Positions 22,813 to 30,944 of a stretch of DNA of 43,410 bases are shown here, in pieces. Each line of letters opens with the position of its first letter. The stretch's first letter is position 1. The position numbers were made by a program, and so were the translations under genes. Below the pieces are notes generated by a model. The model was not told the DNA's origin. It was given only the letters and a program-made list of their open reading frames with translations, and did no database searches. Origin of the DNA: Verrucomicrobiia bacterium (GTDB taxonomy: Bacteria > Verrucomicrobiota > Verrucomicrobiia > Verrucomicrobiales > Akkermansiaceae); the NCBI GenBank assembly GCA_947462875.1, contig CANHQJ010000030.1, positions 1 to 43,410 of the forward strand. The letters run 5' to 3'.

Positions 22813-24423
22813 ATGCAAAACCCTCTCCGTGTCTGCCTGTTAGCACTCACTCTTCCGCTGGCCGCGCAGGGTCCTCCGGCAAATGACGATTTCAACAAGA
22901 GCATCAAGCTCGGTGCCATCGCCTCGCACACGGCCGCCACCAGCAATCTCGGCGGCACCACGCAGACGAACGAAAACACCCTCAACGGACTCATCGGCGC
23001 GACGATCTGGTGGGAATGGACTTGCCCCACCAGCGGATGGGCGCGCATTGACACCAGCGGCAGCGCCATCGATACGGTGGTGAAAATCAACAGTGCCAGC
23101 GGGCTGACCGGCGCCATGCTCGGTTACAACGACGATGTGAGGGATCCCGATGTCACCAGCAGTCTCACTTTCCTTGCCACCGCCAACACCACCTATTACC
23201 TGCAAATCGGCGGCTATCGCGGGGAACAGGGAAACATCCAGCTCGCCATCACCACAGGCACAGCCGCCACGCCCAGTCACTGGCCGAGCGGCATCATCTA
23301 CACGCCCGGTTCGGCCGATGTGACGAATGCGAATGCCACGCTCGAAGCGTCCATCGCCGTCAGCGGCAGTTCCGGCATCCAGGGCTCCGCCACACTGGGA
23401 TTTCTCCGGCCCAATGTCTCTGAGGTGAATCCACCCAACACCAGCATCGCCGGCTATACCAGCAACAACACCAACGCCGTCGTCTCCTGCACCATCCCGC
23501 AATTTTCACAATCCGGATCGTGGAATCCGCTCGTCACCCTCACTCCGCAAAGCGGCATCGCGCTGCTTTTCGGAGGCACCAATTCCGGCAGGCCGCACTT
23601 GCTCAGCACCTCCATGCTGCCCGTCCTATCCGTCAGCAATACCGGCACCAGCGATACCGCCGCGCCGGTGCTCACGGCATTTTCGATCAGCCCGCGCACC
23701 GTCAATGTCAATAACGGTCCCGTCCCCATCACCGTCAGCGCCACGATCACCGATGCGGTCAGCGGCATCGATCAGGTCGAGGTCTGGCTCTATCATCCGT
23801 TCAACTCCGCGTTCGACTACCTGCTGCCCGTCAGCCTCACCGCGGGCACGCTCACGAACGGCACATGGACCGGCACTGTTTCGCTTCCCAAAGAATACCC
23901 CAGCGAGACCTACTCCGTGAATGTTCTGCTCAAGGACCGTGCGATGAACGCCTCCGCCTACGGTGCTTATAGTACTTCGGAAACGCCGGGCGGAGACGTG
24001 AGTTTGGTAGTCAATGGTGGTGGCGCCTATTGGCACTGGGCGTACGAAACGATCAAACCGTTCAGTGACAAGGTCGATCTCACGCAGGACGCGAATGGCG
24101 ATGGCATCGACAATCTCACCTGCTACGCCTTCGGCCTTGATCCGCTGGAATTTTCCGCCGCCGCGCCTTGGCCTGTCATCACGCTCGGCACCTCGCCCGC
24201 CGCGCTATCGGTCCACTACCGCCGCCGCCTCGCGCCCGACAGCGGCCTCACGTACATCCCGCAATTCGCAAACGGTCTCACTGACTGGACAGCCGCCGCC
24301 AATACGCCGGCCATCATCGGCGCCACCGAGGAGTGGGAGGAGCTGAAGGTGACCGATCACGAGACCACCGCCACGCAAACGCGCCGCTTCGCCCGGGTCA
24401 AAATCGAGTATGCGGACCCGTGA
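22813..24423 (+). CDS. Secreted protein with verrucomicrobial C-terminal module
   Basis: The product is 536 aa from the ATG at 22813, with a short signal peptide (MQNPLRVCLLALTLPLAAQG). The N-terminal domain starts GPPANDDFNKSIKLG and contains IWWEWTCPTSGWARIDTSGS and TYYLQIGGYRGEQGN. This is the pre-peptidase C-terminal/beta-sandwich pattern common in secreted proteins. An Ig-like middle part (about residues 295-400) follows. The end matches the C-terminal module of the protease at 2168-3475: NGDGIDNLTCYAFGLDP, LSVHYRRRLAPDSGLTYIPQF, GLTDW, RRFARVKIEY. No catalytic site is seen. It probably acts outside the cell. Confidence 0.75.
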   Translation: MQNPLRVCLLALTLPLAAQGPPANDDFNKSIKLGAIASHTAATSNLGGTTQTNENTLNGLIGATIWWEWTCPTSGWARIDTSGSAIDTVVKINSASGLTGAMLGYNDDVRDPDVTSSLTFLATANTTYYLQIGGYRGEQGNIQLAITTGTAATPSHWPSGIIYTPGSADVTNANATLEASIAVSGSSGIQGSATLGFLRPNVSEVNPPNTSIAGYTSNNTNAVVSCTIPQFSQSGSWNPLVTLTPQSGIALLFGGTNSGRPHLLSTSMLPVLSVSNTGTSDTAAPVLTAFSISPRTVNVNNGPVPITVSATITDAVSGIDQVEVWLYHPFNSAFDYLLPVSLTAGTLTNGTWTGTVSLPKEYPSETYSVNVLLKDRAMNASAYGAYSTSETPGGDVSLVVNGGGAYWHWAYETIKPFSDKVDLTQDANGDGIDNLTCYAFGLDPLEFSAAAPWPVITLGTSPAALSVHYRRRLAPDSGLTYIPQFANGLTDWTAAANTPAIIGATEEWEELKVTDHETTATQTRRFARVKIEYADP

Positions 24424-24434
24424 GGGCTTTTCGC

Positions 24435-24462
24435 TGGACAGACCGTCACATCATGGTAGAGT
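24435..24462 (+). promoter_or_regulatory. Putative promoter of the metal-efflux operon
   Basis: TGGACA (24435-24440), 16 bp, TAGAGT (24457-24462), then 10 bp to the ATG at 24473. The position at the head of the operon and the short distance to the start fit the pattern of other promoters here. Confidence 0.4.
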
Positions 24463-24472
24463 GACCCGCGTG

Positions 24473-24802
24473 ATGCATCTGTTTCGAGTGCTGTTCCTGC
24501 TACTCACCTTCCTGGGTGTGGGGATTCGCGTTGCCGATCTGCATGCGGTCATGCATGACATCAGTCACGAGGTCTGCGAGCACGATCATGAACATGATGA
24601 CGATGCCCCCACGCCCTGCCATGACCCGCAGCATCACCACCACCAGTGCGCCTGTGTGCAGCCTGTCTTTTGCTTGCCGGATTTTCCGGAAGTAAGCATT
24701 GCCCGCATGGCGGGCACTCAGTCCCCGCAGCCGGAGTGCTGCGATTGGGAGCTACCGGATGATCCGGTCTATGCGCTGGATGTGCCGCCCATCATCGGGT
24801 GA
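24473..24802 (+). CDS. Small secreted His/Cys-rich protein, putative metal binder
   Basis: The product is 109 aa. A hydrophobic N-terminus (MHLFRVLFLLLTFLGVGIRV) acts as signal or anchor. About 12 His and 7 Cys follow, including CEHDHEHDDD, PQHHHHQCAC and ECCDW. Nothing about the rest suggests an enzyme. Its place as first gene before CzcC-, CzcB- and CzcA-like genes suggests a periplasmic metal chaperone, buffer or sensor, with zinc, copper, nickel or cobalt as candidates. I do not recognise a named family. An earlier in-frame start at 24410 would precede the promoter and bury the signal peptide. Confidence 0.7.
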   Translation: MHLFRVLFLLLTFLGVGIRVADLHAVMHDISHEVCEHDHEHDDDAPTPCHDPQHHHHQCACVQPVFCLPDFPEVSIARMAGTQSPQPECCDWELPDDPVYALDVPPIIG

Positions 24803-24893
24803 GAAATCGTACGCCTGATTGCGTACTGACACCGGCATCGCGACCTAACGCGTTCGCGGTTTCGTTTTGATTTTTCTCACTCAACTTTTTTGT

Positions 24894-26105
24894 ATGGTCC
24901 GTTCCATTCTTTTTCTTTTTCTCTGTGCATCCATTGCTGTTGCTGAACCTGCCCTGATTCTTACCGAAGCATCCTTGGCGGGACGCATTCACGCGCAAAA
25001 TCCCGACCTCAAGGCCGCGCGCTGGAAAATCCAGGAAGCGCTCGGCAAGTGGCAACAGGCAGGACGCCCTTCGCGTCCACGGCTGGATGTGCAGTGGATG
25101 CAAACGCCTGATTTCCGCGAAGGCGAGGTCAAGGTCGGCATGTCTCGTTCCTTCCCCATCACCCAGCGGCTCGCGTGGGAGAAGGAAATCAGCAAGTCCG
25201 GCCTCGAAGCCGCGGAGATGGAGGTGCGGCGCGCCGAGCAGGAACTGATTGCGGAAGCGCGATTGATTTTTGTCCAGGCGCTCGCCCTGAAAAGCCGCCG
25301 CCAGTCCATGGCCGTGCAGCAAGAGGAGGCCGAGGCCTTTGCCGATGCCGTGAAAAAAAACCAACAACGCGCCGAGGCCTCGGCGCTCGATGCCGCGCAG
25401 GCGAAACTCGATGCCGCCAGCCTGCTCATCGAACAAAAACAACTCGATGCCCAGGAAATCACCCTGCTCACCTCGTTGAAAAAATTGTTAGGCATGCAGC
25501 CCGCCGATCAGATCAGTGCTGGCGGCGAACTGCCGGCTCTGCATGATGCCGCGGCGGGCGATGTATCGCGGCGCGCGGATTACCAACAAGCGCTGCGCGC
25601 GGTCGATGGCGCCCGCAACACGGTGCAGCGCGAACTTGCCAATCGCTTCGATGACCTGGAAGCGGGCATCTATGTCTCGGGCATGCGCCAGCTCGATGAG
25701 CCTCAGGGCTATCGCAGCGATCTCATGCTCGGTTTCCAGCTCAGCATCCCCCTGCCATTCTGGGATGACAATTCCGGCAACATCGCCGCCGCCAAAGCGG
25801 GCGTGGAGCGCCGCGAACGTGAGGCCAAGGCGATTCTCGCCGATGCGCAAAACGATGCCAGCGGCGCGACGGCGGAAATGCGTGAGTGGAAAAAACTCGA
25901 TCAACAGATCACGACCGAGCTCCTTCCGCTTGCGGAGGAACAACTCAAGCTGGCCCAGGAGGCATACGCCCGTGGGCAAGGGGAGCTCGCCACCATCTTC
26001 CGTGCCCGCGCCCAGAAACGACAACTCACGCTGGCGCGCATCGATGCCCGCAGCTCCTACCACCAGGCCCGCATCCGCCAGCAAGCGGCGCTGGGCAACC
26101 CCTAA
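24894..26105 (+). CDS. TolC/CzcC-like outer-membrane efflux protein
   Basis: The product is 403 aa from the ATG at 24894, with a signal peptide (MVRSILFLFLCASIAVA). Long Ala/Glu/Gln-rich helices and the NPDLKAARWKIQEALGKWQQAGR opening mark an outer-membrane factor of the TolC superfamily, CzcC branch. So does the second half with IPLPFWDDNSGNIAAAKAGVERRE and EEQLKLAQEAYARGQGEL. It would form the trimeric outer-membrane exit duct for the RND pump encoded downstream. It is followed 18 bp later by the adaptor gene. The proteins usually have 400-450 aa, so this one is complete. Confidence 0.88.
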   Translation: MVRSILFLFLCASIAVAEPALILTEASLAGRIHAQNPDLKAARWKIQEALGKWQQAGRPSRPRLDVQWMQTPDFREGEVKVGMSRSFPITQRLAWEKEISKSGLEAAEMEVRRAEQELIAEARLIFVQALALKSRRQSMAVQQEEAEAFADAVKKNQQRAEASALDAAQAKLDAASLLIEQKQLDAQEITLLTSLKKLLGMQPADQISAGGELPALHDAAAGDVSRRADYQQALRAVDGARNTVQRELANRFDDLEAGIYVSGMRQLDEPQGYRSDLMLGFQLSIPLPFWDDNSGNIAAAKAGVERREREAKAILADAQNDASGATAEMREWKKLDQQITTELLPLAEEQLKLAQEAYARGQGELATIFRARAQKRQLTLARIDARSSYHQARIRQQAALGNP

Positions 26106-26123: not shown

Positions 26124-27320
26124 ATGAAAACAACCATTCTCTTTTCTTTGGCGACACTCTTGCTCGCCCCCGTCACACGCGCGGCCGTCGCGGTGCCCCC
26201 CGTCATCCTCACCGAACAAGGCGTCAAAAACCTCGGCCTGGAAACCGTCACCGTCGAGGAAGCCGACTTCGAAACCACCACCTTCGCCCTCGGCCGCACG
26301 GAAGCCATTCCCGAAAAACGCGCTATCCTCAGCAGTCGCGTGTCCGGTCGTGTGATCGAAAACAACCTGAAGATCGGCATGTATGTCGAAAAAGACGAAC
26401 CTCTCGTGTTATTGGAAAGTCGTCAACCTGGCGACCCGCCGCCCAGCATCTGGCTCAAGGCCCCTGCCGCCGGAACGGTCATCGGCGTGAACACCAGGCT
26501 CGGCGCACCGCTGGAGCCGACGGACAGTCTCGCGGAAATCGCGGATTTGAAAACGATCTATCTGATTGTCACCCTGCCCCAGGCCACCGCAGGGAAAATC
26601 AAACAGGGCACGCAGGCGATCGTGCGTTTCCCCGTCCGCCCGGATCGGGAATACTCCGCCACCTTGCTGAAATTCACCGCCTGCCCCTGCCCTGATCCGG
26701 CCTGCGCGCTGGGACAGGACGTCTCCACCCGCTCGCAACAAGCCGAAGGCGCGGACCTCAATACCGCCGGCGTCATTTTCACCATCGAAAATCCCGACAA
26801 CCAACTGCGCCCGGGCATGAACGCGGAATGCTCGATCATCATGGAAAAACGCCAGGGCGTGCTCAGCGTGCCGCGCGAGGCGATCCACGGCGGCACCGCC
26901 AACCGGCACGTCTACGTGAAACACATGAGCATCCCGAACGCCTTCGACCGCGTGAACGTGCAAACCGGCCTTGCGAGCAACGGCCGGGTGGAAATCATCG
27001 ATGGACTCCTCCCCGGAGATGAGGTGGTCACCCGCGGTTCCTACTCGCTCGGCTTCGCGGGCAGTGGCGGCGGACCTTCGTTGAAAGAAGCCATGGATGC
27101 CGCGCACGGCCATGAACACAATGACGATGGATCGGAAAAATCGAAGGATCAGGAAAATTCCTCTCCCACTGCCGAGCACGACGATCACGCACACGAGGCC
27201 CACGGCATCAGCATGCGCGAGATGTTTTTCATGGCCTCCACCGGCATCCTCGCGCTGCTGCTGGTCATCACCTCGCTGCGCCGCCGCTCTCCTGATTTCG
27301 CCACGACAGAACTTTCCTGA
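26124..27320 (+). CDS. CzcB/CusB-like periplasmic adaptor with C-terminal membrane anchor
   Basis: The product is 398 aa with a signal peptide (MKTTILFSLATLLLAPVTRA). Barrel-sandwich and lipoyl-like segments are seen in ILSSRVSGRVIENNLKIGMYV and IWLKAPAAGTVIGVNTRLGA, then the beta-barrel (LYLIV-like strands) and NQLRPGMNAECSII. Two features are odd. A CPCPDPAC cluster (Cys187, 189, 194) lies within the beta-barrel region. After a His-rich stretch (GHEHND, EHDDHAHEAHG) comes a C-terminal transmembrane segment (about 366-385) ending in LRRR. Adaptors are normally anchored at the N-terminus or not at all. It joins the pump to the outer-membrane factor. Confidence 0.85.
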   Translation: MKTTILFSLATLLLAPVTRAAVAVPPVILTEQGVKNLGLETVTVEEADFETTTFALGRTEAIPEKRAILSSRVSGRVIENNLKIGMYVEKDEPLVLLESRQPGDPPPSIWLKAPAAGTVIGVNTRLGAPLEPTDSLAEIADLKTIYLIVTLPQATAGKIKQGTQAIVRFPVRPDREYSATLLKFTACPCPDPACALGQDVSTRSQQAEGADLNTAGVIFTIENPDNQLRPGMNAECSIIMEKRQGVLSVPREAIHGGTANRHVYVKHMSIPNAFDRVNVQTGLASNGRVEIIDGLLPGDEVVTRGSYSLGFAGSGGGPSLKEAMDAAHGHEHNDDGSEKSKDQENSSPTAEHDDHAHEAHGISMREMFFMASTGILALLLVITSLRRRSPDFATTELS

Positions 27321-27323
27321 CCC

Positions 27324-30300
27324 ATGCTCAACTCACTCATCCGCTGGTCCCTGCGAAATCGCGCGATCATTCTCTGCCTCTCGCTGCTCATCCTCGCGGC
27401 GGGTTACAAGACGGGCAGCGGGCTTCCCGTGGAAGTCCTTCCCGACCTGACCAAGCCCACGGTCACCATTCTCACGGAATCGCCCGGGCTCTCGCCGGAA
27501 GAAGTGGAGGCTCTCGTCACGCAGCCCATCGAGAACTCGATGATGGGCGTGTCAGGGCTGACCCGCATGCGCTCCACCTCCGACATCGCGCTCTCGCTGG
27601 TGTTTGCCGAATTCGAATGGGGCACCGACATTTACCGCGCCCGCCAATTGGTGCAGGAGCGGCTTCAGGTCGCGCGCGAACAGCTGCCCGATGGCACCCA
27701 ACCGTATCTCACTCCCGTCGCCTCGCTGATGGGGGAAATCCTGCTCATCGGAGTGAAAAGCAACGACGGGAAAACCTTGCCCATGGATGTGCGCACGGTC
27801 GCCGACTGGACCATCCGCATGCGGCTCCAGGCCATCCCCGGCGTGGCCGAAGTACTCAACATGGGCGGCGGCGTGAAGCAGGCGCAAGTCCAGCCCGATC
27901 CCTGGCGCATGCAGGCCAACGGCGTCACCATCGAGGAACTGGAAGACGCGGTCAAAAAGGCCGCCTCCAATACCACGGGAGGATTCATCGACAACGGACC
28001 GCAGGAAATCATGGTGCGCAATCTGGCCATGACGGTGGAGCTCTCAGACATCGCCCGCACCATCATCAAAAAACCGGGCGGGCGGCCGATTGCCATCTCG
28101 GATGTCGCCACCGTCGCCTGGGGCACGGAACCAAAGCGCGGCGAAGCGGCGGTGAACGGCAGCCCCGGCGTGGTCATGAGCGTCATCAAGGCACCGGGCT
28201 TCGATACCATCGCACTGACGAAAAAAATCGAAGCCGCCATCGACGGACTCAAACCCACCCTGCCCGCGGGAGTCGAGGCCACCGTGCTGTTCCGGCAGCG
28301 CGATTTCATCGACAGTGCCATCGGCAACTTGAAAAAAGCCATCATCGAGGGCGCGGTCATGGTCACCCTGGTGCTCCTGCTTTTCCTCCTCAGCTTCCGC
28401 ACCACCTTCATCACGCTGATGGCCATGCCGCTGAGCTTTTGCATCACCTTGCTCACCTTTGAGTGGATGGGACTGAGCGTGAACAGCATGACGCTGGGCG
28501 GACTGGCGGTGGCCATCGGCATGGTGGTGGACGATGCCATCGTCGATGTGGAAAACGTGTTCCGCCGCCTGCGGGAAAACGCACGGCTGAGAGAACCGTT
28601 GCCGAAACTCGAACTCATCGCACAGGCTTCCGGTGAGGTGCGCAACTCGATTCTCTATGCCACCGTTCTCATCGTTCTGGTGTTCATCCCGCTGCTCGGT
28701 CTTTCCGGTGTCGAGGGGAAACTGTTCGCGCCCATTGCCATCGCCACGATCATCAGCATGATCGCGTCTTTTGTGGTCTCCCTCACCGCGATTCCCGTGC
28801 TCTGTTCGTTTTTGTTGAAGGTGAAACCCTCGCGTGAAGAAAACGATCACGGCGACGGCAGACTCGTGCGTTTCCTGAAGTGGTCGCTGAAGTCCACCAT
28901 CCTACGCTTCAGCCTGCGCCAACCCGTCATCATCGTGGCGGTGGTTTCGCTATTGCTGGCATTCGCCCTCCTGCTTTATCCGCAAATGAGCCGCGACTTC
29001 CTGCCCGCGTTCCACGAGGAAACCGCGGTCGTCACCACCGGAGCCGCGCCGGGCACCTCGCTCGCGGAGATGGAAATGATTTCCCGGGCGGTGGAAGAGC
29101 AGATCCGCCAGATCCCGGAAGTCCTTCACATCGGTCGCCGCATCGGCCGCGCCGAACGCAGCGACCACGTCGTGCCCGTCAACAACGTGGAGTTCGACAT
29201 CGATTTCAAAAAGGACGGCAAAGGCCGCCCGCTCAAGGTCGTGCTCGATGACATGCGCGAGCGCATCAAAACCGTGCCCGGCACCTTCAGCATCATCTCC
29301 GGTCCTCTCTCCCACCGTATCAGCCATCTTCTCAGCGGTGTCACTTCGCCCGTCGCGGTGAAGATCTTCGGCCCCGATCTCGCCATCATCACGAATCTCG
29401 GCGAGCAGGTGCAAAAGGTGGCCCAAACCGTCCCCGGCCTGACGGATGCCAAGCTCGACATGCAAGCGCAGATCCCCCAGCTCCGCATCGAGCTCGACCG
29501 CGATCGCGCCCTCGCCCACGGCGTTTCCCCTGGAGAGCTGAACGCGGAACTTTCCACCTTGTTGGGCGGGACACAGGTCGCCCAACTGCGGGAGAACCAG
29601 CGTGTCATCGATCTTGCCATCCGTCTGCCGGAGAGCAGGCGCGGCGATGCCGAAACCATCCGCAACCTGCCCATCCACACCGTCACGGGCGCCCACATTC
29701 CGCTCCACCTCGTCGCCGATGTGCGGGAGGCCTCGGGCCCCAGCGCGGTCTATCGGGAAAACACCCAGCGCCGTTACGTGGTGTCCATCAAGCCCAGCGA
29801 ACGCGATGCCGGAGCTCTGGTGGCGCAACTGGAGCAAAAAGTGCGCGATGAGGTGAAATTCCCCGAAGGCTATTTCATCAGCTACGAGGGGGACTTCCGC
29901 GCCGAGCAGGCCGCCGCCAAACGCATCGCCATCCTCTTCGCGGCCATTCTGGTGGTGATCGTGCTACTACTTTGGTCGTACTTCCGCAGCCTGGTGCTCG
30001 CGTTTCAGGTGCTGCTCAATCTCCCGCTGGCACTGATGGGCAGCCTGGCGCTGACCTGGTATCTCGTCGGCAACATCAGCGTGGCCACGCTGGTCGGTTT
30101 CATCGCCGTGGGCGGAGTCGCCGCACGCAACGGCATCATGATGATCTCCCACTACCTCCATCTGATGAAACACGAGGGCGAGGGCTTCACCTATGCCATG
30201 ATCGAACGCGGCACGCTCGAACGTTTCGTGCCCGTCACCATGACCGCGCTCTCGGCCGGCATCGCGCTGATCCCTTTCGTCATCGCCATGGGCGAGCCCG

Positions 30301-30455
30301 GCAAGGAAATCCTCAGCCCCGTTGCGATTTGTATCGTCGGCGGATTGGTCAGTTCGACCCTGCTGGACTTCGCCGTCACTCCTGCCGTCTTCCGCCTGTT
30401 CGGAAAAAAGGCCGCCGCCAAGGCTCTCGCACTGAACGCCCCCGCCACCCACTGA
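27324..30455 (+). CDS. CzcA/CusA-like heavy-metal efflux RND pump
   Basis: The product is 1043 aa, a typical HME-RND length. The first transmembrane helix is followed by LPVEVLPDLTKPTVTILTES and GLSPEEVEALVTQPIEN, the signature of the metal branch. The helix-4 motif AIGMVVDDAIVDVENVFRRL contains the acidic residues that relay protons. Twelve transmembrane segments are expected, with two large periplasmic loops (about 33-340 and 560-870). The pump expels metal cations using the proton gradient. It begins 4 bp after the adaptor stop. Substrate residues cannot be assigned from sequence by eye, so monovalent versus divalent specificity is open. Confidence 0.92.
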   Translation: MLNSLIRWSLRNRAIILCLSLLILAAGYKTGSGLPVEVLPDLTKPTVTILTESPGLSPEEVEALVTQPIENSMMGVSGLTRMRSTSDIALSLVFAEFEWGTDIYRARQLVQERLQVAREQLPDGTQPYLTPVASLMGEILLIGVKSNDGKTLPMDVRTVADWTIRMRLQAIPGVAEVLNMGGGVKQAQVQPDPWRMQANGVTIEELEDAVKKAASNTTGGFIDNGPQEIMVRNLAMTVELSDIARTIIKKPGGRPIAISDVATVAWGTEPKRGEAAVNGSPGVVMSVIKAPGFDTIALTKKIEAAIDGLKPTLPAGVEATVLFRQRDFIDSAIGNLKKAIIEGAVMVTLVLLLFLLSFRTTFITLMAMPLSFCITLLTFEWMGLSVNSMTLGGLAVAIGMVVDDAIVDVENVFRRLRENARLREPLPKLELIAQASGEVRNSILYATVLIVLVFIPLLGLSGVEGKLFAPIAIATIISMIASFVVSLTAIPVLCSFLLKVKPSREENDHGDGRLVRFLKWSLKSTILRFSLRQPVIIVAVVSLLLAFALLLYPQMSRDFLPAFHEETAVVTTGAAPGTSLAEMEMISRAVEEQIRQIPEVLHIGRRIGRAERSDHVVPVNNVEFDIDFKKDGKGRPLKVVLDDMRERIKTVPGTFSIISGPLSHRISHLLSGVTSPVAVKIFGPDLAIITNLGEQVQKVAQTVPGLTDAKLDMQAQIPQLRIELDRDRALAHGVSPGELNAELSTLLGGTQVAQLRENQRVIDLAIRLPESRRGDAETIRNLPIHTVTGAHIPLHLVADVREASGPSAVYRENTQRRYVVSIKPSERDAGALVAQLEQKVRDEVKFPEGYFISYEGDFRAEQAAAKRIAILFAAILVVIVLLLWSYFRSLVLAFQVLLNLPLALMGSLALTWYLVGNISVATLVGFIAVGGVAARNGIMMISHYLHLMKHEGEGFTYAMIERGTLERFVPVTMTALSAGIALIPFVIAMGEPGKEILSPVAICIVGGLVSSTLLDFAVTPAVFRLFGKKAAAKALALNAPATH

Positions 30456-30497: not shown

Positions 30498-30944
30498 ATG
30501 AAAACGACACTGCAACTGACCACCGCACTCCTCGCCCTCTTCGCCAGCCCGCTGGCGTATTCCGCCGAGGACCATGATCATGAAAAAGAAGAACATGTGC
30601 ACGAAGATAACGTCACCAAAGGCCCGAATGGCGGCCATGTGATCGAGTCCAAGGCCGGCTTTTCCATCGAAATCACCGTGGACAAGGATCGCAAAGCCCG
30701 GATCATTTTCCTCGACAAGGACAAGAAGCCCGCCGCGCTTGGCGAGCAAAGCGTCACGGGCCTCGCCGGTGAACGCTCGGCTCCGACGAAACTCGCTTTC
30801 GCCAAAGGCAAAGATGCCGATGCGAACGTTCTCATCTCCGACCAACCGCTACCCGCCGGTGCCCACGTGGCCATGATCCTCACGATCAAAACCGCCCCGG
30901 ACGCGAAGGCGGCGGTCGAGCGCTTCGAAATGCACCTTCACTGA
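30498..30944 (+). CDS. His-rich periplasmic protein of the metal-efflux operon
   Basis: The product is 148 aa with a signal peptide (MKTTLQLTTALLALFASPLAYS). The mature N-terminus is EDHDHEKEEHVHEDN, a likely metal-binding tail. The rest is a small beta-domain opening GPNGGHVIESKAGFSIEITVD and ending FEMHLH. Proteins of this layout recur beside metal RND operons. They are thought to bind metal in the periplasm or to regulate delivery to the pump; that role is inference. It follows the pump gene by 42 bp and is the last gene of the operon. No terminator hairpin with a T-tract is visible after it. Confidence 0.75.
   Translation: MKTTLQLTTALLALFASPLAYSAEDHDHEKEEHVHEDNVTKGPNGGHVIESKAGFSIEITVDKDRKARIIFLDKDKKPAALGEQSVTGLAGERSAPTKLAFAKGKDADANVLISDQPLPAGAHVAMILTIKTAPDAKAAVERFEMHLH

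Follow-up and report, generated by a model that had tools for sequence, protein, structure and literature searches.

The window (the whole stretch of 43,410 nucleotides which was analysed) encodes a periplasmic adaptor for a metal pump of the RND type; the adaptor has no alpha-hairpin and ends in a hydrophobic helix. We judge it rather probable that this is an HME-RND adaptor in which the alpha-hairpin was lost and in which an inner-membrane C-terminal transmembrane helix replaces the N-terminal lipid or helix. The anatomy of the adaptor, its conservation and the order of the genes around it are direct observations. Hairpinless adaptors are themselves known from BesA; a hairpinless HME adaptor with a probable C-terminal anchor is probably new. 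In models of tripartite pumps the hairpin grips the outer-membrane channel and the membrane anchor is N-terminal, and a conserved lineage which lacks the hairpin, with its anchor apparently reversed, is a natural test of which adaptor tasks are essential.

Architecture of the adaptor

The adaptor gene (26,124–27,320, forward strand) has an ATG start and encodes 398 amino acids. Against TIGR01730, the model of RND periplasmic adaptors, the protein scored 104.9 bits (curated cut-off 94.9); the original prediction of a CzcB-like RND adaptor is supported. It scored far below the curated cut-offs of the CzcB/NccB model TIGR00999 (64.7 vs 319.3 bits), the CusB model NF007303 (40.6 vs 390 bits) and the model of the IhpB divalent metal exporter adaptor, NF045680 (51.9 vs 450 bits). 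A scan of genome contigs found 372 relatives, and we examined the best 80. TIGR01730 matched all 56 members of alignment A2, consisting of the window adaptor and the 55 of these 80 relatives which were complete with an ATG start, at E 0.001.

The original prediction recognised the RND adaptor and overlooked its biggest anatomical change, the loss of the alpha-hairpin between the lipoyl halves. TIGR01730 covers the protein only with model positions 2–60, 137–207 and 219–312, leaving positions 61–136 unmatched, whereas the five other adaptors of this genome which exceed the cut-off cover nearly the full model. The alignment, the TIGR01730 match and the AlphaFold2 model all place a loop where the hairpin would be (residues 98–113; 26,415–26,462, forward strand). 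This segment, E98–A113, is 16 residues long in 81/81 aligned sequences, most often containing ESRQPGDPPP. AlphaFold2 (mean pLDDT 81 overall and approximately 90 or higher in the domain core) modelled it as a strand-loop-strand arrangement which connects the lipoyl strands 93–99 and 108–112. The top Foldseek match in the PDB was BesA (E 1.3e−19), and VIA-align gave a tie between BesA (Z 18.3, rmsd 5.7, 248 aligned) and CusB (Z 18.0, rmsd 8.5, 271 aligned).

At the other end of the gene product, residues 364–386 (27,213–27,281, forward strand) form a hydrophobic helix which is a probable inner-membrane anchor, and residues 386–398 (27,279–27,317, forward strand) form a basic tail, RRRSPDFATTELS, which is probably cytoplasmic. 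The highest 19-residue hydropathy window spans residues 367–385 (Kyte-Doolittle mean 2.2) and is directly followed by RRR, so that the predicted C-terminal hydrophobic helix with its run of arginines was confirmed both by hydropathy and by AlphaFold2. AlphaFold2 modelled residues 364–386 as a lone helix beyond a low-confidence linker and not as a buried soluble helix. Nor was the helix missing from homologues: a C-terminal hydrophobic segment was found in all 77 relatives which could be read to their end, among the best 80 of the 372.

Counts over 78 sequences refer to the window adaptor and these 77 relatives; L039 and L100 were left out because of contig ends and L043 because of a broken frame. 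A 19-residue mean of at least 1.6 after the His motif was reached by 77/78 full-length sequences, the exception being L088 (1.46), compared with 456 of 15,600 shuffled tails of the same 78 sequences. The genome has ten further adaptor-like ORFs; in the nine which were read (all but L124) a comparable C-terminal segment was absent, with a highest mean of 1.41. The helix was retained down to approximately 41% identity in alignment A2, although the linker ahead of it varies. All 78 sequences carry at least one K or R past the helix. Net charge over the 12 residues past the helix was higher than ahead of it in 66/78, equal in 9/78 and lower in 3/78; the 12 sequences in which the difference is zero or reversed count against an anchor.

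The N-terminus carries a signal peptide (approximately residues 1–20; 26,124–26,183, forward strand) whose cleavage is only putative. The lipobox scan found a lipobox-like match in 1/78 sequences and none in the window adaptor. The passages available from a 2015 review name only an N-terminal helix or an N-terminal lipid as adaptor anchors (PMC4446572), and those from a 2026 review only an N-terminal lipid, an N-terminal helix or an uncleaved signal peptide (PMC13328181), in line with the expectation that C-terminal anchoring is unusual for adaptors. The sole “C-terminal transmembrane” passage of PMC8277102 concerns AcrB. Among the open-access papers listed by searches on C-terminal anchoring, on hairpin loss and on metal pumps of Verrucomicrobia, none described an adaptor anchored at its C-terminus. 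Because the reviews name N-terminal anchors and the lipobox-like match is confined to one sequence other than that of the window, a C-terminal anchor is the simplest reading. The C-terminal helix is thus a probable inner-membrane anchor with the basic tail inside, a topology which we infer from hydropathy, charge and the AlphaFold2 predictions. Alternatively, an uncleaved N-terminal helix may attach the adaptor.

Gene neighbourhood, family and the role of the helix

Five genes follow one another on the same strand: a His/Cys-rich ORF, an outer-membrane factor, the adaptor, the pump and a small secreted protein. The outer-membrane factor (24,867–26,105, forward strand; OEP family, PF02321) stops 18 bp 5′ of the adaptor, and the CusA/CzcA-type RND pump (27,324–30,455, forward strand) begins 3 bp past the adaptor stop and scored 761 bits against TIGR00914 (cut-off 701). 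A CusA/CzcA-family pump and an outer-membrane factor share one gene cluster here, which we took as the mark of an HME-RND cluster. This arrangement is conserved, with a pump match at most 1.5 kb 3′ of the adaptor in 74/75 loci with room and an outer-membrane factor match 5′ of it in 79/80 loci (61/71 by a stricter distance rule). The small His/Cys-rich protein 5′ of the outer-membrane factor (24,410–24,802, forward strand) is probably secreted and presumably resembles CzcI-type proteins. Its membership of the system is uncertain, and relatives of it were found at 11/80 loci (E 1e−3) or 4/69 loci (E 1e−5). At 5/80 loci (L044, L057, L095, L099 and L109) the adaptor gene is separated from the pump gene by an antisense toxin-antitoxin pair, a PIN-domain VapC-like protein with a FitA-like antitoxin; the pair at L057 was scanned and the other four were read by eye.

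By record title, 79 of the best 80 relatives belong to Verrucomicrobiota, including members from records titled by strain and not as metagenome bins (Luteolibacter marinus, Haloferula rosea, Cerasicoccus frondis, Cerasicoccus maritimus, Brevifollis gellanilyticus and Persicirhabdus sediminis), and one, L080, to Gammaproteobacteria. We searched 288 genomes of the window's phylum with a profile, scoring up to six candidates per genome, and found 28 places in 24 genomes with E < 1e−100, the next match being at 9e−77. L080 comes from genome G288; when 299 genomes of that genome's phylum were searched in the same way, a family-level match was obtained in G288 alone. L080 carries both the helix and the motif, and lies on a 9.2 kb contig of a metagenome bin which may have been misbinned; within the 299 genomes of its phylum, where it is the lone family member, a spread beyond Verrucomicrobiota was not borne out. 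On these searches, the tail-anchored hairpinless adaptor has so far been seen in Verrucomicrobiota. The adaptor match in G547 (E 4e−60) is hairpinless and has no C-terminal helix.

We also placed the adaptors on a tree, from which the trait columns were excluded; it was built by a quick method with SH-aLRT support only and carries long-branch warnings for L132–L135 and L137. A branch with support of 100 sets the adaptor family apart. Its nearest neighbours include L127 and L128, in which the C-terminal helix is present but the HGHxH motif is not, as well as L130, L131 and L133, which are helix-less and end in a His-rich tail; helix presence needs three changes on this tree. Since hairpinless or distant relatives occur without the helix and most of them are His-tailed, hairpin loss and the His tail seem to predate the helix. 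It should also be noted that hairpin loss does not require the helix, since both hairpin and helix are missing from more distant adaptors, namely those of the Legionella plasmids, L129 and L147.

These observations bear on what the helix does. It could lengthen an older His-rich tail with no functional weight of its own, a reading which agrees with the fact that helix-less hairpinless or distant relatives mostly end His-rich (e.g. GHGH or GGHHH). We consider this quite improbable, given that the helix persists in 77/77 full-length relatives while the linker varies and that L127 and L128 have a C-terminal helix as well. The same persistence suits a helix whose main role is to bind the pump, like a fused AcrZ-like small subunit which sits in the transmembrane domain and tunes activity; the small helical proteins YajC and AcrZ bind RND pumps within the membrane, according to the part of the 2015 review available (PMC4446572). 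However, a specific interface should leave a mark on conservation, and almost no helix column is marked as conserved in alignment A1, which comprises the window adaptor together with 22 of the 29 remaining first loci (all but L017, L022, L023 and L025–L028). We regard pump binding as the main role as rather unlikely.

An exosortase-family protein is encoded in the genome (PF09721, E 6.6e−46), which led us to weigh a sorting signal as well. The layout of a helix followed by an Arg cluster resembles that of PEP-CTERM-type sorting signals, and an exosortase would cut such a signal, leaving a mature adaptor which is soluble or attached elsewhere. However, the PEP motif required before the C-terminal helix was found in 0/78 sequences, counting PEP-like and LPxTG-like motifs together, and on this ground a PEP-CTERM signal was rejected. 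From 4 to 26 residues (median 13) lie beyond the 19-residue hydropathy window in the 78 sequences, which also argues against such a signal, and no PEP-CTERM family was among the Pfam matches of the adaptor at E 0.01, although motifs as short as these can escape such a search. Sorting by this or a similar route is highly improbable in our estimation, and an inner-membrane anchor is the reading with which we continue.

Putative metal sites, the small partner and the substrate

Between the adaptor domains and the helix lies a conserved motif, SLKEAMDAAHGHEHNDDGSE (residues 319–338; 27,078–27,137, forward strand), which contains HxHxH and is a probable metal site. S319, L320, K321, A323, D325, A327, H328, G329, H330, H332, D335 and G336 are invariant in 78/78 sequences. 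It is followed by a variable linker rich in His, Asp and Glu (residues 339–363; 27,138–27,212, forward strand), with pLDDT < 50 at 347–361; histidines of the C-terminal segment are at 328, 330, 332, 352, 355, 357 and 360. The “His-rich stalk” which had been proposed stood up as regards the conserved motif, SLKEALDAAHGHxHxxDG, and not as regards the remainder, as the linker varies and has no His in 13/78 sequences. Metal binding by the His segment is plausible, and it is also plausible that the C-terminal helix holds this segment next to the pump.

The cysteines of the adaptor are at 187, 189, 194 and 236. The first three form a CPCPDPAC cluster (26,682–26,705, forward strand) in a loop insertion of low AlphaFold2 confidence between the strands 172–185 and 214–222. 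They had been presented together with the helix: the three cysteines are present, and the pairing fails, as the CxCPDPxC pattern occurs in 12/81 sequences, the window included, all within a single clade which seems to have lost it once, in L038; the helix is family-wide. The cluster could plausibly bind metal. A four-cysteine site of the cluster and C236 was rejected in favour of a three-cysteine description, as C236 (11/81) does not strictly track the cluster: it is present in 8/12 cluster bearers (not in L033, L040, L041 or L042) and in the three non-bearers L038, L039 and L097.

The small secreted His-rich protein 3′ of the pump (30,498–30,944, forward strand) is a predicted CrdA/P19-like beta-sandwich (mean pLDDT 84) and an unnamed candidate for metal handling. 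VIA-align gave tied scores for CrdA (Z 10.0), the P19-family protein FetP (9.8) and a DUF4426 protein (9.7), with an rmsd of 2.7 over 94 aligned residues and 8–10% identity for CrdA; Foldseek alone was weak (best E approximately 4e−3). Neither Pfam nor NCBIfam assigned a family to the window protein, and Pfam gave weak, scattered matches across 50 members, with at most 3 members for any one family. Of the 59 loci with 4 kb or more of downstream sequence, 53 have the small protein by tblastn, and in the remaining six it was read by eye; the relatives are often His-rich near the N-terminus. Homology with the Legionella small protein at the equivalent place in its operon was rejected, as blastp and phmmer gave no match between the two.

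A four-Cys pattern, CxxC...[WY]xCxC, lies 2.8–6.5 kb 3′ of the adaptor at 54/59 loci, the exceptions being L032, L033, L035, L037 and L038. In alignment A3 (the window and 49 of the 53 small proteins) 44/50 proteins have this tail, which is absent from the same five loci and from the window. All six tail-less proteins belong to the Cys-cluster clade, of which L038 is the cluster-less member; L031, L034, L036 and L043 were left out of this comparison, being unreadable that far. L040–L042, an early branch of the clade, have both the cluster and the tail. A Cys site may therefore have moved from the small partner to the adaptor in the window's clade; the exchange of cluster and tail is a single evolutionary event and not a statistical correlation.

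As for the substrate, the metal class is ambiguous from the pump alone. A P1B-ATPase match was found 3′ in 11 of the 51 loci with room, of which that of L102 is short and 33% identical, and the other 40 had none; a NicO match was found 3′ in 2/51 loci, that of L102 being weak. The ATPase of L067, the only one scanned, scored above the cut-off of a cadmium family and below that of a copper family, and the NicO protein of L071 matched a nickel/cobalt efflux family above its cut-off. The CusA Met triad consists of M573, M623 and M672; in 65 pumps of the family Ala/Ser predominates at the first of these positions and Thr/Val at the second, and the third is His668 in 65/65. E611, D614, H615 and E623 are likewise invariant. 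Because of the ATPase and NicO neighbours and of the residues at the triad positions, among them the invariant His668, Zn/Cd/Co/Ni are favoured over Cu(I), and going by these sequences the pump probably exports divalent cations, Zn/Cd/Co/Ni being likelier than Cu(I). Against a divalent reading, the hairpinless system of Legionella fallonii lies inside a copper gene cluster, CrdA and P19 bind copper, and 40 of the 51 loci have no P1B-ATPase match. Copper may be a substrate of the pump.

In the mechanism which we propose, the adaptor would be exported by Sec and its remaining domains would then attach to the pump. As has been suggested for BesABC, direct contacts would link the outer-membrane factor to the pump and to the lipoyl domains, and the helix would keep the adaptor beside the membrane part of the pump. 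The HxHxH motif, aided in one clade by the Cys cluster, would capture divalent cations and hand them to the periplasmic cleft of the pump, jointly with the CrdA/P19-like small protein. An extension of this scheme, which we put forward as a tentative possibility, turns the adaptor from what is mainly a bridge to the outer membrane into a subunit which is tethered to the membrane and loads the pump with metal: with the hairpin lost and the anchor shifted to the C-terminus, the invariant HxHxH site, kept close above the membrane, would feed the periplasmic entrance, and the Cys site of the clade, relocated from the CrdA-like partner, would be part of a relay which partner and adaptor share.

Comparison with known systems

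The adaptor shares its fold, operon partners and a CusA/CzcA-type pump with CusB and ZneB/CzcB. Those adaptors possess the alpha-hairpin, and we know of no C-terminal helix in them. The metal-binding region of CusB is N-terminal in the account available to us (PMC4446572), whereas the putative one of the window adaptor is at the opposite end of the chain. SilB, another HME adaptor, is alike in carrying an extra part for metal handling at its C-terminus, as outlined in the available passage of the same review, but that part is a folded CusF-like domain, in place of which the window adaptor has a short motif, a linker and a helix (PMC4446572).

Hairpinless adaptors were also found on plasmids of Legionella. 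In the plasmid adaptors L143 and L144, and in L129 and L147 (G145 and G547), an SR-x-x-GNPPP loop replaces the hairpin as in the window adaptor; unlike it, all four have neither the C-terminal helix nor the HGHxH motif. The pumps of L143 and L144 are 38–39% identical to that of the window. The operon of L143, on a plasmid of Legionella fallonii, is flanked by genes for a copper P-type ATPase and a multicopper oxidase, and L144 lies on a plasmid of Legionella adelaidensis.

For the small protein, the comparison is with CrdA of Helicobacter pylori, a partner of CrdB-CzcBA in what has been proposed to be a Czc-type system for copper efflux; going by the portion of that report available, the two proteins have similar positions in a Czc-type operon (PMC9182242). 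CrdA is Met-rich without His, whereas the window protein is His-rich.

The closest anatomical parallel to the missing hairpin is BesA of Borrelia burgdorferi BesABC (PDB 4KKS, 4KKT and 4KKU), which is hairpinless like the window adaptor and whose lipoyl halves are connected by a nine-residue loop, Pro106–Leu114, in the part of the description available (PMC3807786). The window adaptor has a short loop of this kind between strands 93–99 and 108–112. The partner of BesA is a multidrug pump, whereas the partner pump in the window scored above the CusA/CzcA cut-off. BesA is lipidated at the N-terminal Cys26 and the window adaptor has no lipobox; the passages available on BesA mention neither a C-terminal helix nor a His motif (PMC3807786). 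Those passages also report hairpinless sequences from further spirochetes and, in rare cases, from proteobacteria, Legionella among them, and their authors infer that without a hairpin the exit duct is recruited differently (PMC3807786).
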